Shown here: positions 47,880-53,592 of the stretch, in pieces
Position numbering within the stretch: the stretch's first letter is position 1
Layout of the letters: each line of letters starts with the position of its first letter
Assembly: GCA_030068525.1 (NCBI GenBank)
Contig: JASJOS010000012.1
Span: forward strand, 1-64,000
DNA: 64,000 nt
Direction of reading: 5' to 3'
Source of the DNA: Xanthocytophaga flava
Lineage (GTDB): Bacteria; Bacteroidota; Bacteroidia; Cytophagales; 172606-1
Notes under the pieces: generated by a model
Told to the model about the DNA's origin: nothing
The model's input: only the letters and a program-made list of their open reading frames with translations
Databases searched by the model: none
Position numbers and translations under genes: made by a program

Positions 47880-49454
47880 ATGAACAAATACTTTATCATC
47901 GGCATTGGCGGTACAGGCATGCGTTGTCTGGAAGCATTCATTCACACGTGTGCAATGGGCATGTTTGACAATAGTGAAATTAACCTTCTGGCTCTGGATA
48001 CAGATCTGGAAAATGGCAATTTTGCCCGTTTACAGGAGCTTGTGGATGCTTACTTAAAAACAAAAGGAGAAAACAAAACCCAAACCCCACATGCTGATAC
48101 GTTTTTTTCAGCAAAAATTAATTTTTATAAGTTCTCACCTGACTATTCCCGCACTGAAACCAGCAGTTTTCAACGTATAGCGAAGACTAGTTATGCAACA
48201 GAGACAGAGAGAGATCTGGCCAACTTATTATTTACTGATAATGTTCAGGCTTTCGATCTTAAACATGGTTATCGTGCTCAGACCCATCTGGGTTCTATGT
48301 TAATGTATCATGCAATCATTGATGAAGTCAATAAAAACCCAGGAGGCAACATGTCTGCCTTTATTGATGAGTTATACAATGCCAATACAGCTGGCAATGT
48401 AAAACTATTTATCATGGGATCTGTTTTCGGAGGTACAGGCGCATCTTCTATTCCTGTTATGCCGGCTGCATTGGATACTGCTGTCAGAAAACGACATCAG
48501 GGAAAAACATTGGATAAACTCTTTGTAGGAGCAACTTTACTGACTAGTTATTTCTCGTTTATATCACCTACTCAGAATTCACGCGAACTTCAGAAAATCG
48601 TTGCTGACTCCAAAAACTTCTCTATGAACTCGCAGGCAGCTATGATGTTTTATGAAGATGACCTGAGTGTACGACGTACCTATCAGAAGTTCTATATGTT
48701 GGGTACCCCAACCAATGATTTTACTACACCACAGGCAGAGCCAGATACTATCACAGGTGGCAATCGCCAGCGCAACGACTCTCATTATATTGAACTTTTC
48801 TGTGCTTTTGCAGCCTATGACTTCTTTAAGAATCCAGATGCAGATTTACAAAAAATTAAAGATGATAAGGCAAGTGGTGTACAATACTATTTCCGCTCTA
48901 TTGATGACAGTCAGAAACTTGATTTCAAAGATTTTCTTCCAGAAAATGAAGCATCCAATATCTTTCTTAAAAAATTAACACTCTTTACTGCCTTTTCCTT
49001 CCTGGTAGGTTTAGATAATACCGATTTCTTTGCCTCAGCACAAAGAGGTGATCTCAAGAATATAACAGGCTATGAAGATATAACAAAAGTTGAGTTAGAT
49101 GCACTATTAAAATATATGGGATTATTTCATTTCCGTTTCTCCAATGATGAACTACGCGAAGGATGGCTTCGTCAGGTATGGCGTTCATCAGGTGGAGGAG
49201 AGCGTTTTATGTATAATCCTGAGATGTTTGGTGCCACTACTGTACGAGATCTTCGAAAATTTGAGTTTAATAAATTATTTTCCAAGAGCAGCGAGTATCA
49301 GAGACATAATTTCAGTGTCAATTTCCTAACCAGTCCTTTTGACCGTTTTAAAGAGACATTTGTTAAAGAAACATCTGATGGGGCATTTGCGAACAAGAGT
49401 GAAAAGCTGATTAAGAGGATGTATGATACACTTGTTAAGTTATATAGTTTTTAA
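47880..49454 (+). CDS. Tubulin/FtsZ-superfamily protein (Tubulin_2-like)
   Basis: 524 residues. N-terminal GIGGTGMRCLEAF (residues 8-20) is the phosphate-binding loop of the tubulin/FtsZ Rossmann fold. The tubulin signature is GSVFGGTGASSIPVMPAAL (G184-G-T-G187), and the region IMG-SVFGG is preceded by a long helix, as in FtsZ. C-terminal half unlike FtsZ: helix-rich with acidic patches, ending LVKLYSF. It is not FtsZ itself, which is shorter and has the GGTGTG loop. Distant relatives with Tubulin_2 domains occur in bacterial genomes next to membrane-remodelling-type genes. First gene of a three-gene operon with a membrane protein and an actin/Hsp70-like protein. GTPase activity and polymerisation are not shown. 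Confidence 0.82.
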   Translation: MNKYFIIGIGGTGMRCLEAFIHTCAMGMFDNSEINLLALDTDLENGNFARLQELVDAYLKTKGENKTQTPHADTFFSAKINFYKFSPDYSRTETSSFQRIAKTSYATETERDLANLLFTDNVQAFDLKHGYRAQTHLGSMLMYHAIIDEVNKNPGGNMSAFIDELYNANTAGNVKLFIMGSVFGGTGASSIPVMPAALDTAVRKRHQGKTLDKLFVGATLLTSYFSFISPTQNSRELQKIVADSKNFSMNSQAAMMFYEDDLSVRRTYQKFYMLGTPTNDFTTPQAEPDTITGGNRQRNDSHYIELFCAFAAYDFFKNPDADLQKIKDDKASGVQYYFRSIDDSQKLDFKDFLPENEASNIFLKKLTLFTAFSFLVGLDNTDFFASAQRGDLKNITGYEDITKVELDALLKYMGLFHFRFSNDELREGWLRQVWRSSGGGERFMYNPEMFGATTVRDLRKFEFNKLFSKSSEYQRHNFSVNFLTSPFDRFKETFVKETSDGAFANKSEKLIKRMYDTLVKLYSF

Positions 49455-49518
49455 ACTCATAATTAATAGTAAATTAAGTCCATCTGTATCTTTATTCACT
49501 ATTAATTAGTTACAACAA

Positions 49519-50022
49519 ATGACCTCCAAACAATACTTTCTAACGCAATCTATTATCCATCTGGCATTAATGATGGGGCAGATTTTATTCGCTATTGTAA
49601 CTTTTTACATAAGTCAAACTTCGCCTTCGTCAGGTAATGAGGAATTAAAACAAACCTTTACTTACCTTATACCTTTAGTAGCATTGATAGGCATAGCAGC
49701 TGCATTTCTATTGTTTAATATTCTATTAAAAAAGGCCAGAGAAAAATCCAGTCTTAGTGAAAAAATATCAGCATATGGAACGGCAATGATTGTTCGATAT
49801 GCACTACTGGAGGCTCCATCACTGTTAAGTATCATTGCTTTTTTCCTTACTGGAGACTATACATTTCTCTCAGTATTCGGTATTGTTATCATTCTGTTTA
49901 TCTTCCTCCGCCCGTCAAAAGATAAGTTAATTCAAGAACTTGAGTTAGATCCCAATGAAGAAATACTGATTAATACTCCAGATGCAGTAATCATGAAAAG
50001 AAATTTAAGTAGTAAGGATTAG
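49519..50022 (+). CDS. Four-helix membrane protein of the tubulin-like operon
   Basis: 167 residues with four predicted transmembrane helices (about 10-32, 47-68, 90-112 and 117-136), and a soluble C-terminal tail (about 140-167; KDKLIQELELDPNEEILI). No family is recognised. The second gene of the operon, 64 nt after the tubulin-like gene and 50 nt before the actin-like gene. A membrane anchor or adaptor for the two NTPases is a reasonable guess from layout only. Confidence 0.75.
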   Translation: MTSKQYFLTQSIIHLALMMGQILFAIVTFYISQTSPSSGNEELKQTFTYLIPLVALIGIAAAFLLFNILLKKAREKSSLSEKISAYGTAMIVRYALLEAPSLLSIIAFFLTGDYTFLSVFGIVIILFIFLRPSKDKLIQELELDPNEEILINTPDAVIMKRNLSSKD

Positions 50023-50072
50023 CTTATCGATCAGAAAGAACAAATCAATTTGTAAACTCAGTAATTAAAAAT

Positions 50073-53000
50073 ATGCCCAAATCACTTCTCATTCAAAGTT
50101 CACAGGTCCGTAATGGAGATCGTGGTAAATGGAATAAATTTGATCAGCAAAAACCTTATATACAAGGCATTCAGACAGGAGATGTAGCTACTCAGGAAAT
50201 TGATGCGGTTACACTCAATACTATGATATCGGGAGTTCCCACTCCTTGGGCCAGAGCCAGATTGTTTGGATTTGCATTAAAATACACCCAGGAAGATCCC
50301 AATATAAAGACAACAGGCTTAATCAAATTTTACAATTCTCTAATTGCAGAATGGAAAGGGCTGATTGCCTGCATGGCATTATTTCCCAATCGAATCAAGA
50401 TTGCATCCCCTCTACCTATGGACGTACAGAATATCAACGATCTGTACTCAATTCCAACGTCTCTGGGAAGGATGCTTTTTGATGATACAGATCTGTGGAC
50501 AGAACCGGATTCTTTGTCAAGAAATGATCCCAATGCAAAACCTGCGGTCCAACTTATTTATTACAATGGAAAACTCATTGGTGGAACGTCTCCTTATTCC
50601 TTGGCTTTTCCAGCGGCCTCTTATACTAATTTACCGGACTCGGGAGATATCGGGTGGTATCGCAATGGAAAATTTGATGATCCTCTGGTATATGGTAATC
50701 TTGGAGCAGATGACCTGAAGAAATTGTTTCTTTTGGTTAAGACAATGGCAGCAAAAATCCCGTCTTTTGAGCAAAAAATTAACCAAAACAGACAAGGAAA
50801 AGTAGCACTTTCTTTATTGGGTCTCCGGGAATTTACGGAGAAATTTGCTCAGGACATAAAAGCTAAGGCTCCTAATATTGAAGAGAGTGGCACACTTGAT
50901 GGTGAATTAAATTTTGCAGCACCTTATCAGGAATTATTTGCAGTAAAATCAGGCTATTATTTCCTCAATGGGGTATTTTATCTGAATGATCCAGGTAGCG
51001 GAGCTGTAGAAATTGATCCAAAATCATTACTTCTGGATTCAGAAACGCTATCTCAGTTCTTTCTGGAAGATGAAACTCAGCCTTTGGATAATGCAGCTGT
51101 ATACTATCTGAAAGCACGGGATCTAAGTCGAAATGAAGACTTATATTTTCCATTACCATTAAGTCGTTCAGCTATTCTATTATTTCAGAATAATCTGGCA
51201 GATCTGCTACAAGGTAAAAAAGACTTTCATCAGATCTATGCAGAATTGAAACCCAACGAGTATCGTCTCAAGGTTCGTTTCAGGTTATATGTCGGTGATA
51301 AGCATATGACCCCTATTGAACGTGAATATAAGATTGAACCAATGGACACAGGGAAACATGTCATTCTATGGCCTAATTTTATTTCTGAACATTGGCAGCA
51401 ATATTATTTATACAATGAAATTCCAGCAAATGATACATCTATTAAGATAGTACCATTCTTTAAACGTTGGGAAAACCCATGGAAAATTATCACCAATGAC
51501 AAAAAACAATTTGTCTATGGAGAAGGGATGACAACAGATGAGTTTAAGTTCATCAATGATAATGGATTACCAGAAAAACGCCTGGAAGGAGACAAACTGG
51601 TATATTACCCGATTGGCAAATCAGGAGATATTCATAAATATGAAATCTACCGTTTCAATCAGCCACTAGCCGGTCTGGAAATCCGGAAAAACATTGGTGG
51701 ATCAGATCAGGTGATTGGTTATCTGATGGCTAAAAATGCAACAGAAACCTTCAAAGATCTTTCAGGTACACACACACCAGAATATATTCGTAATCGTAGG
51801 GCAACCGTCGGAATTGATTTTGGTTCTAACAACTCTTGTCTAAGCTATTCTACAGATGGAGTAGTTAAACCTTTTACCTTTAAAAACAGACGTGTGTTTT
51901 TGATGGGTGCAGAAACATTTAATGGTGACAGCAAGTTTGCATCCCTTCATGAAATGTATTTCTTTCAGAATGAAAGCATCATGAATGGACAACTCAAAAC
52001 CTGGGTTCAGCAGCACAATCGTCTGAGTGTTGTTCCTGGTAAAGAAACCATTGAAATTTCTGGCGGAGTACCTATTTTCGAACCTAACATCCGGGTTCTG
52101 GCAATGGAAAAGTCCTTTATGCGAACCAACGCCGGTGAATTGTACTACAGCCTGAAATGGGAAAATGATGATGCTGGTATGCATCGCAAGGAAGGATTTT
52201 TGAAAACCTTATGGCTGACAATGTGTGCAGAATTGTATGAAAATCAGTATGCACCTTCTGTTATGCGTTGGTCATATCCAGGAGCTCTGTCAAAAAAAGA
52301 TCAGCGTTTATATAACACTATGTACGGAAACATTGCCCAGATTACACCTATACGCAATGTACCTACAGCTAATCTTGAACAACCTCTTACTGAAGCAGAA
52401 GCAGTTTGCAACTATGCTCTTAGCAAAGGAGGATTAGCATTTTATGGTGACAATATGATGATTGGGGCAGATGTGGGAGGTAGTACCTGTAACGTACTTT
52501 TAGTGGCTCGTGAAAAAGGACAGGATGGAAGTTATGCACCAAGACTGGTTAAGCAAAGTTCTCTACGAATGTCAGCCGGTAAACTGGCAGAAGTAACCTT
52601 AAAATCATCTCAGGTACGTGAAGCTATCTATTATTTTGCTACCTCAGGCATTGCCAATATCAAGGTAATGGGTATTGAGGAAATGCGTAATAAACCAGAA
52701 GTCTCACCCTATTATCTAAATACGATTCTGGATCGCCTGCGTGGTGAGGATTTTGACAAATTTTATAAATCACTGGCCCAGTCAGGATCTCCATATGTTA
52801 ACAAAGCAGAAGCAAGAGCTATTTTTGCTATTCCAACCTTTATTTGTGGAACTGTATTGTTTTATTCTGGTATGTTGGCAAAGAAAACAATTCAGGATCG
52901 TAATCTGACAGGTATCAACACCTTTGAGTTCTTTCCATTTGGAAAAGGAGGCCGTATGTTTGACTGGTTAGAAAGCTTTATTGGCAAACAGGATACACTT

Positions 53001-53534
53001 TCTTATTATAACAATTGCTTTAAAGCTGGGTTTGGAGAAGGTTCTGACACTATCCGCCTGGTAAAACGTGATGAAATACGTCAGGATAATAAGTCAGAAG
53101 TTTCATTTGGTTTGTCAGCAGAACGAAAAGTAGTAGTTGATGAGAATAGCAGAGAAACAGCCGATATTGTAGGGGAAGAAGGATTTGTATTCAATGGTCA
53201 AACCTTAAAAGCAAGTGATTCTGTCACTACTCAATACCTGGAAAAGATTGAACAGTTTGATCAGATCCCTGCTAATTTTACCAACTTTGAAAAGTTTCTG
53301 GATGTATTCCTAAATCTGGCAGGACCTAATGACGCGGGTATCATTGAAAATACCCAGATGCTAAAAAGCAAACTACCTGAAATTCGAAGAATGCTGCTGA
53401 ATTATGTTACTTATGATCCTGAGTATATTAATGCCCGAACCTCTGGTCAATTCGACTATAAACACTCTATTCTGGTGCTTATAGCAATGTGTTTTTTAGA
53501 CCGTATTCTGATTCCAGACTTATTTAAAGGATAG
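50073..53534 (+). CDS. 1153-residue protein with C-terminal actin/Hsp70-like ATPase domain
   Basis: Two halves. Residues 1 to about 570 have no recognised family. They are beta-rich, aromatic and acidic, with repeated FPLP- and Y-F-L-N-G-type turns. Residues from about 575 carry actin/Hsp70-fold marks: phosphate-1 loop VGIDFGSNNSCLSY (Gly580-Asp582-Gly584) and phosphate-2 loop IGADVGGSTCNVLLVA (Asp800-Gly803). A large insertion between them (about 600-780) and a C-terminal helical tail follow. It lacks the Hsp70 substrate domain and signal peptide. Last gene of the operon with the tubulin-like and membrane proteins. Alternatives: a very divergent SrfB-like or cell-shape protein. A strong hairpin follows. 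Confidence 0.7.
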   Translation: MPKSLLIQSSQVRNGDRGKWNKFDQQKPYIQGIQTGDVATQEIDAVTLNTMISGVPTPWARARLFGFALKYTQEDPNIKTTGLIKFYNSLIAEWKGLIACMALFPNRIKIASPLPMDVQNINDLYSIPTSLGRMLFDDTDLWTEPDSLSRNDPNAKPAVQLIYYNGKLIGGTSPYSLAFPAASYTNLPDSGDIGWYRNGKFDDPLVYGNLGADDLKKLFLLVKTMAAKIPSFEQKINQNRQGKVALSLLGLREFTEKFAQDIKAKAPNIEESGTLDGELNFAAPYQELFAVKSGYYFLNGVFYLNDPGSGAVEIDPKSLLLDSETLSQFFLEDETQPLDNAAVYYLKARDLSRNEDLYFPLPLSRSAILLFQNNLADLLQGKKDFHQIYAELKPNEYRLKVRFRLYVGDKHMTPIEREYKIEPMDTGKHVILWPNFISEHWQQYYLYNEIPANDTSIKIVPFFKRWENPWKIITNDKKQFVYGEGMTTDEFKFINDNGLPEKRLEGDKLVYYPIGKSGDIHKYEIYRFNQPLAGLEIRKNIGGSDQVIGYLMAKNATETFKDLSGTHTPEYIRNRRATVGIDFGSNNSCLSYSTDGVVKPFTFKNRRVFLMGAETFNGDSKFASLHEMYFFQNESIMNGQLKTWVQQHNRLSVVPGKETIEISGGVPIFEPNIRVLAMEKSFMRTNAGELYYSLKWENDDAGMHRKEGFLKTLWLTMCAELYENQYAPSVMRWSYPGALSKKDQRLYNTMYGNIAQITPIRNVPTANLEQPLTEAEAVCNYALSKGGLAFYGDNMMIGADVGGSTCNVLLVAREKGQDGSYAPRLVKQSSLRMSAGKLAEVTLKSSQVREAIYYFATSGIANIKVMGIEEMRNKPEVSPYYLNTILDRLRGEDFDKFYKSLAQSGSPYVNKAEARAIFAIPTFICGTVLFYSGMLAKKTIQDRNLTGINTFEFFPFGKGGRMFDWLESFIGKQDTLSYYNNCFKAGFGEGSDTIRLVKRDEIRQDNKSEVSFGLSAERKVVVDENSRETADIVGEEGFVFNGQTLKASDSVTTQYLEKIEQFDQIPANFTNFEKFLDVFLNLAGPNDAGIIENTQMLKSKLPEIRRMLLNYVTYDPEYINARTSGQFDYKHSILVLIAMCFLDRILIPDLFKG

Positions 53535-53549
53535 TTTATTTAGATTTGG

Positions 53550-53583
53550 TAGAATAGCTCTGGGATATCCTAGAGCTATTCTA
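53550..53583. terminator. Bidirectional terminator after the actin-like gene
   Basis: 12-bp stem TAGAATAGCTCT / AGAGCTATTCTA (53550-53561 and 53572-53583), with the palindromic GGATATCC in the loop, then CTTTTAAAG. Shared by the convergent gene ending at 53593. Confidence 0.8.
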
Positions 53584-53592
53584 CTTTTAAAG

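Follow-up and report, generated by a model that had tools for sequence, protein, structure and literature searches.

A tubulin-like protein and a large Hsp70-like protein found together in Bacteroidota: a candidate envelope-linked system seen from Xanthocytophaga flava

Do neighbouring genes for a tubulin-like protein, a small membrane protein and a large actin/Hsp70-like protein belong to one system? The question is raised by positions 47,880-53,534 of a 64,000-nucleotide stretch of Xanthocytophaga flava DNA (the window; contig JASJOS010000012.1), where a preliminary description made from the letters alone had placed three open reading frames (ORFs). We found all three there, on the forward strand, and refer to them as TUB, MEM and GIANT (Table 1). 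The genome that carries the window (9.49 Mb in 63 contigs) is designated G000; other genomes, contigs and loci are cited by G, C and L numbers. TUB and GIANT are a conserved pair, kept or lost together across relatives in strict co-occurrence, and MEM is probably a bystander. If TUB and GIANT form one assembly, they would offer a tractable model of cooperation between the tubulin and actin folds, and Bacteroidota, gut genera included, would have an envelope-linked switch of a new type.

Co-occurrence of TUB and GIANT

We assessed co-occurrence in 192 genomes of relatives with a completeness of 90% or more. TUB was present in 57 of them and a strong GIANT match (E-value 3.5e-84 or better) in the identical 57; the other 135 genomes had neither TUB nor any strong GIANT match. 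The coincidence extends to genomes in which the two genes are far apart: 47 pairs are adjacent (same strand, <1 kb), while 10 are not, four of these lying on a single contig at distances of 1.7 to 239 kb and six on different contigs, some of which may reflect assembly breaks. At E ≤ 0.001 the GIANT profile had matches in 130 of the 192 genomes, 57 strong and 73 weak. The 73 weaker ones (E 8.5e-7 to 8.9e-4) were set aside as generic actin-fold proteins, without their individual identities being established, because those listed are short and fall mostly at model positions about 795-940. Chance co-occurrence was rejected on the 57/57 agreement, a count over genomes that are not independent and uncorrected for phylogeny. 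In a phylum-wide sample, TUB and GIANT matches coincided in four of 148 genomes, two of which (G000 and G018) are also among the 192; beyond the window genome, the three matches to GIANT were weak (E 5.9e-8 to 6.9e-6) and no more than about 3 kb from TUB.

A scan of named genomes gave at least 560 stretches with TUB relatives, and the counts of loci given here and below rest on the best 80. GIANT lies beside TUB in 72 of these 80, always downstream and on the same strand; the gap is at most 200 bases in 71 loci and 210 in the remaining one, with a median of 7.5. Two of the eight loci without GIANT stop at a contig edge; six have 4.4-10 kb of downstream sequence remaining. In G259, TUB and GIANT are one open frame of at least 1623 amino acids (aa), cut by the contig end (L174:3-4871, minus strand); this is a draft genome of about 330 contigs, and the fused frame needs checking.

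The preliminary description had seen a trio and had proposed a genome survey for conserved co-occurrence and further partners. Two members of the trio, TUB and GIANT, are indeed conserved together, and further partners were found (see below); MEM did not hold its place as the third. This protein, with four transmembrane-like stretches, was searched for in seven genomes, giving matches in G000 (100% identity) and G002 (90%), one of 28% identity in G058 (E 7.6e-17, on a different contig), and marginal ones elsewhere (E 0.08 to 0.9). Outside this search, G001 has a 53% match on the same contig as its GIANT. In G002 MEM again lies between TUB and GIANT, flanked there by hydrophobic ORFs of 536 and 539 aa (eight and nine transmembrane-like stretches). 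A comparison with the conserved transmembrane component found in relatives showed no resemblance (hhalign probability 1.4%, single sequence against profile). We therefore rejected MEM as the conserved membrane partner: given its limited distribution, its lack of likeness to the conserved component and its other neighbours in G002, it is probably a bystander left by rearrangement.

Motifs and predicted folds

GIANT had been described as carrying two phosphate loops of the actin fold, and both are present, together with a third motif on the adenosine side (Table 1). Residues D582, F583, G584, D800, G802, G803, G957, K958 and G959 are invariant across 46 GIANT sequences; the stretch EAEAV occupies residues 774-778. 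Motifs and predicted strands place the actin/Hsp70-fold core at approximately residues 575-990. The AlphaFold2 model (predicted local distance difference test, pLDDT, 85.6; predicted template-modelling score, pTM, 0.75) gave 199 Foldseek matches in the PDB at E ≤ 0.001. All 50 of those listed contain Hsp70, and the best was to Hsp70/DnaK (E 7.2e-9, probability 1.00); template-modelling scores to the target go up to about 0.5. Hsp70-type chains were also on top when the GIANT profile was compared with the PDB (E 0.0084). The window GIANT matched no Pfam family at E ≤ 1, HSP70 and FtsA included, and one distant relative matched Pfam FtsA at E 0.0018 (19.1 bits, cut-off 31.8). Complete relatives are mostly 1120-1460 aa long. 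As judged from the model and the motifs, the actin/Hsp70 fold of GIANT is well supported.

For TUB, the preliminary description had proposed a tubulin-like protein with a GGTGAS signature that is not FtsZ. The signature loop is there (Table 1), and among relatives the T1 pattern reads GGTG.R in 79 of 81 sequences, or G.GGTG in its strict form in 33 of 81. At E ≤ 0.01, 45 of 57 aligned TUB sequences, the window included, matched the Pfam family Tubulin_2 (best 1.8e-7) and 43 of 57 matched Tubulin (best 6.4e-6), so the likeness to tubulins is above chance. The window TUB itself scored 18.4 bits against Tubulin_2 (E 0.0014), below the curated cut-off of 27, and nothing in its whole genome matched Tubulin_2 at E ≤ 0.001. 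Membership in FtsZ was rejected, as Pfam and PDB profile searches gave no strong match to it. The AlphaFold2 model of TUB is confident (pLDDT 89.2, pTM 0.93), and tubulin or microtubule entries account for almost all of its 50 listed Foldseek matches (best E 1.0e-3, probability 0.99). Structure prediction, suggested earlier as a check, was thus clear for the Hsp70 fold of GIANT, while the model of TUB is only weakly tubulin-like (template-modelling scores of about 0.2-0.3). Motifs, family matches and model together point weakly to TUB as a non-FtsZ tubulin relative.

Table 1. Features at the TUB-GIANT locus, in window positions; motif counts for the 72 GIANT relatives are affected by sequences that end at contig edges
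Feature	Position	Strand	Description
TUB	47880-49454	+	ORF, 524 aa; tubulin/FtsZ-superfamily GTPase-like protein
TUB T1-like loop GIGGTG	47901..47918	+	Residues 8-13; G10, G11, T12 and G13 nearly invariant in 57 sequences
TUB signature loop FGGTGAS (tubulin T4-like)	48426..48446	+	Residues 183-189; FGGTGA[SA] in 80/81 sequences from 80 loci
MEM	49519-50022	+	ORF, 167 aa; small membrane protein, probably a bystander
GIANT	50073-53534	+	ORF, 1153 aa; predicted actin/Hsp70-fold ATPase core and N-terminal region of ~570 aa
GIANT phosphate-1 motif DFGSNN	51816..51833	+	Residues 582-587; DFG..N in 68/72 relatives
GIANT phosphate-2 motif DVGGST	52470..52487	+	Residues 800-805; D[VI]GG[GS][ST] in 62/72 relatives
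GIANT adenosine-side motif GKGG	52941..52952	+	Residues 957-960; G[KT]G in 62/72 relatives
Strong hairpin, likely terminator	about 53548-53585	+	Between GIANT and the convergent gene; RNA fold -28.9 kcal/mol, z -6.56, 0/200 shuffles

The operon in relatives and its parts in the window genome

Clustering of neighbours at the 80 loci gave a typical gene order: a lipoprotein resembling von Willebrand factor A (vWA) proteins, a short transmembrane protein, TUB, GIANT, a second Hsp70-like protein and then an exchangeable module. The lipoprotein was called in 65 loci, the second Hsp70-like protein in 53 and the transmembrane gene in 30, the last count being affected by the under-calling of short genes. 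Most lipoproteins carry a D.S pattern (62 of 65), 35 of 65 have a lipobox-like pattern, and a TD.E stretch is conserved; two lipoprotein groups match each other in profile comparison (95%). On the D.S pattern and this profile match we take the lipoprotein to be vWA-like. The second Hsp70-like family matched Hsp70 in the PDB (E 0.0033), and one member matched Pfam HSP70 below the cut-off.

The module at the end of the operon varies. TerD-type genes were counted in 33 to 38 of the 80 loci, an OmpA or CW_7 protein in 34, a DO-GTPase2 with GAP1-N2 in 10, and a kinase with PP2C in four (upstream in L100). Pfam, run on module representatives only (L113, L083, L093, L078 and L057), identified TerD and OmpA in L113, TerD and CW_7 in L083, DO-GTPase2 and GAP1-N2 in L093 (GAP1-N2 at 22.3 bits, cut-off 24), a kinase in L078 and PP2C in L057. 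When 78 rows of the TUB tree were labelled by module, 36 were TerD/OmpA, 10 GTPase/GAP1, four kinase (the window among them, labelled from a locus elsewhere in its own genome) and 28 unrecognised. We counted seven module changes over 48 rows, the minimum possible being two; branches are long, and the starred branches force fewer changes. Left out of these 48 rows are the 28 whose module was unrecognised, L098 as a duplicate of the identical L099, and L138 as a near-copy of L137. The window TUB clusters with the kinase-type loci, with 88% support when labelled as kinase from its own genome. Among 11 more distant loci (L026-L036), four (L026, L027, L028 and L030) have MotA/MotB-type genes; those of L027, the only locus on which the profiles were run, match ZorA (E 3.5e-5) and ZorB (E 6.8e-13). 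We also noted that 12 of the 80 loci (L074, L080, L081, L083, L086, L092, L096, L098, L099, L102, L107 and L124) have, close to the operon, a large gene that by eye looks like those for cation-transporting ATPases.

In the window genome the operon is split. The lipoprotein and transmembrane genes adjoin on another contig (G000:C4, about 196.8-198.7 kb), and the second Hsp70-like gene is on a third (G000:C22), where it lies between two PP2C genes and a Ser/Thr kinase gene, one further gene intervening on each side. In G003, the first gene called after GIANT, at a distance of 0.85 kb downstream, encodes a product with 63% identity to one of these PP2C proteins. Kinases similar to that of the window genome are encoded in the L072, L078 and L079 operons; in one case the likeness spans 457 residues and extends past the kinase domain. 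A second kinase-like stretch lies beside the kinase gene (L160:3917-4714, minus strand, tblastn E 1.4e-37). No TerD gene and no ZorA or ZorB gene was seen at the three loci of the window genome, the rest of the genome not being searched for TerD and no other Zorya gene being sought. DO-GTPase2 was not found in this genome; among six genomes only G003 has one (G003:C18:1022984-1023634, on a contig other than its TUB; GAP1 was not searched).

Close genomes retain the parts: the lipoprotein and the second Hsp70-like gene were found in eight of eight, the transmembrane protein in four of four. Two genomes, G058 and G008, have each of the five core genes on a contig of its own. The core genes have been retained despite such dispersal, which argues for a joint action. 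Because the operon is split here, a single window can point to the wrong membrane partner. In G003 and G005 (genus g2) the lipoprotein gene is fragmented and interrupted by stops (L022, L165, L168), whether by decay or by an assembly error.

Candidate functions, related systems and local setting

All that follows on assembly and nucleotide use by TUB and GIANT is argued from sequence and predicted structure. We consider it an evenly balanced proposition that the two proteins form the cytoplasmic nucleoside triphosphatase (NTPase) core, an NTP-driven switch or scaffold, of an envelope-linked surveillance or signalling machine of Bacteroidota with exchangeable output. The lipid-anchored vWA-like protein would sense an envelope event, and the small transmembrane protein would relay the signal inward. 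TUB (with GTP), GIANT (with ATP) and the second Hsp70-like protein would then assemble or change state, upon which the exchangeable module would act. The purpose would most likely be stress or conflict signalling, and the output in the window genome is most likely the Ser/Thr kinase with PP2C near the second Hsp70-like gene. A further reading, tentative and less probable than the one just given, is that TUB and GIANT are an obligate two-NTPase assembly working outside division, anchored at the envelope and furnished with interchangeable outputs (kinase/phosphatase, TerD, GTPase/GAP1 or an ion-driven motor of ZorAB type). Such a joint assembly of tubulin and actin folds is suggested by the co-inheritance and by the one fused frame.

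Several observations weigh against the proposed surveillance machine. The structural likeness of TUB to tubulins is remote, since no PDB match was counted at E ≤ 0.001 and template-modelling scores were as low as given above; a profile search of PDB sequences with TUB found neither tubulin nor FtsZ, and we did not recognise the catalytic T7 loop by eye. The lipoprotein had no Pfam vWA match and no PDB match. Kinase and PP2C are common folds; in the window genome their genes are separated from the second Hsp70-like gene by others, and they may be bystanders. Finally, the six of 80 loci with sequence left downstream have no GIANT in it, although one such organism has GIANT elsewhere.

The same parts can be arranged into other explanations. 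TUB and GIANT could polymerise, or tether polymers, at the membrane in the manner of FtsZ and FtsA and so shape or partition the cell or envelope, with the lipoprotein and transmembrane protein as anchor. Both folds come from cytoskeletal superfamilies, the pairing is constant and once fused, partners are membrane proteins, and the weak FtsA match of one distant GIANT fits as well. We nevertheless think this unlikely: Foldseek places GIANT nearest to Hsp70 chaperones rather than filament-forming actins, relatives carry modules of signalling or stress genes, and a presence in 57 of 192 genomes is patchy, unlike that of a core shape or division system. Patchiness sits better with a dedicated anti-phage or conflict system of the type proposed by Kaur et al. 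(2020), in which an NTP-dependent threshold triggers an effector, and so do the DO-GTPase2/GAP1-N2 clusters, the abundance of TerD-type genes and the ZorA/ZorB-like genes of the distant loci. The kinase of the window genome, moreover, matches 36 PADLOC models (best PD-T4-6, E 3.6e-47), as general kinases may too. On the other hand, PADLOC gave no match at E ≤ 0.01 for TUB, GIANT, the lipoprotein or the second Hsp70-like protein, GIANT had no match in plasmids and TUB none in phages, and the window genome lacks a detected DO-GTPase2 and has its parts scattered, unlike a mobile defence cassette. We give this explanation the same low probability as the FtsZ/FtsA-like one.

Least probable of those considered, and rather improbable, is that the system acts as a chaperone, folding an envelope complex or inserting it, and that TUB has a regulatory role as a GTPase instead of forming a polymer. 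This would explain the two Hsp70-fold proteins per system and their lipoprotein and transmembrane partners. A DnaJ-domain gene (by Pfam) is 2.2 kb from GIANT in G058 (L058:6697-7083), and a J-protein-like gene (by eye) is about 3 kb from GIANT in G008 (L059:15733-16581), with an M41-peptidase/AAA gene nearby. In both of these genomes, however, the core genes are on separate contigs; J-domain genes are common, and no client gene was recognised among the annotated neighbour families, many families not being annotated.

The preliminary description could match its trio to no described system. A precedent for the pairing exists, as FtsZ and FtsA are a known pair of tubulin-fold GTPase and actin-fold ATPase at the membrane; to our knowledge there is no other obligate pair of these folds in bacteria. 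By analogy, FtsZ-FtsA may be the nearest system in working mode. The difference is that TUB is not FtsZ by profile, and that GIANT is nearest to Hsp70 and far larger than FtsA.

Closer in gene content are the vWA/FtsZl1 operons of Makarova and Koonin (2010; PMC2875224), where a divergent FtsZ/tubulin homologue with the signature GGGTG(S/T)G is next to vWA-domain and OmpA-type genes. Tubulin_2 is the Pfam family matched by most aligned TUB relatives, and the T1 and T4 loops of TUB, GIGGTG and FGGTGAS, are a variant of that signature. FtsZl1 proteins are described there as mostly having an extended coiled coil and a helical C-terminal domain, whereas the longest helix in the model of the 524-aa TUB has 22 residues (judged without a coiled-coil program), and the window TUB is under the Tubulin_2 cut-off. 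A possible counterpart of the vWA gene is the vWA-like lipoprotein, called in 65 of the 80 loci, without a Pfam vWA match, and on another contig in the window genome; the constant partner is the Hsp70-fold GIANT, while Hsp70 and DnaK are unmentioned in the main text of PMC2875224. The legend of its superfamily alignment names a Bacteroides caccae sequence, from which membership of the present family could not be told.

The GTPase systems reported by Kaur et al. (2020; PMC7159879) include some that contain a tubulin or an HSP70 component. The GAP1-N2 GTPase-centric systems share with ours the themes of tubulin, HSP70, vWA, kinase and PP2C, as well as the DO-GTPase2/GAP1-N2 modules in 10 of 80 loci. 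In that paper, however, tubulin, HSP70 and kinase are non-overlapping themes, mainly of Firmicutes and Actinobacteria, whereas the present system unites tubulin and Hsp70 folds, occurs in Bacteroidota and has no GTPase/GAP1 pair at most of the 80 loci. Compared with Hsp70 (DnaK) itself, GIANT shares the phosphate-1, phosphate-2 and adenosine motifs and the fold; it differs in its large extra N-terminal region and, for the window protein, in having no Pfam HSP70 match. The TerD-type genes recall Ter stress-response genes, yet are one among several alternative modules, and the MotA/MotB-type genes of the distant loci recall Zorya. The system is related to the FtsZl1/vWA and GTPase-centric systems but distinct from them; in the window genome it lacks a defining feature of each. 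The earlier failure to find a match stands insofar as this arrangement is undescribed in the open-licence literature searched (listings, abstracts and passages), though related systems are in print, those of PMC7159879 among them.

As to the setting of the three genes, TUB and MEM are separated by 64 bases and MEM and GIANT by 50; a gene on the opposite strand precedes TUB, and a convergent gene follows GIANT after a gap of 58 bases. A single transcript is plausible because of the strong hairpin after GIANT, so that TUB, MEM and GIANT could be transcribed together. This hairpin is missing from the listing of a consensus terminator scan, which gave four terminator-like sites in the window against 3.9 in shuffles and 25 promoter-like sites against 21.8. 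No Rfam or tRNA match was observed in the window.

An origin in phages or plasmids was rejected on the two null searches mentioned above and on a viral collection in which the window TUB, used alone as query, found no relative. One contig of the same collection does carry the complete operon at its end (L173:2621-12032; lipoprotein, transmembrane protein, TUB, GIANT and second Hsp70-like protein), possibly as the host flank of a prophage. Two TUB sequences from other groups are likely to be contamination of metagenome-assembled genomes (MAGs): one, from a Saccharibacteria MAG, has exactly the sequence of a Bacteroidales TUB (L098, L099), and one from a Eubacteriales MAG (L087) falls among Bacteroidota.

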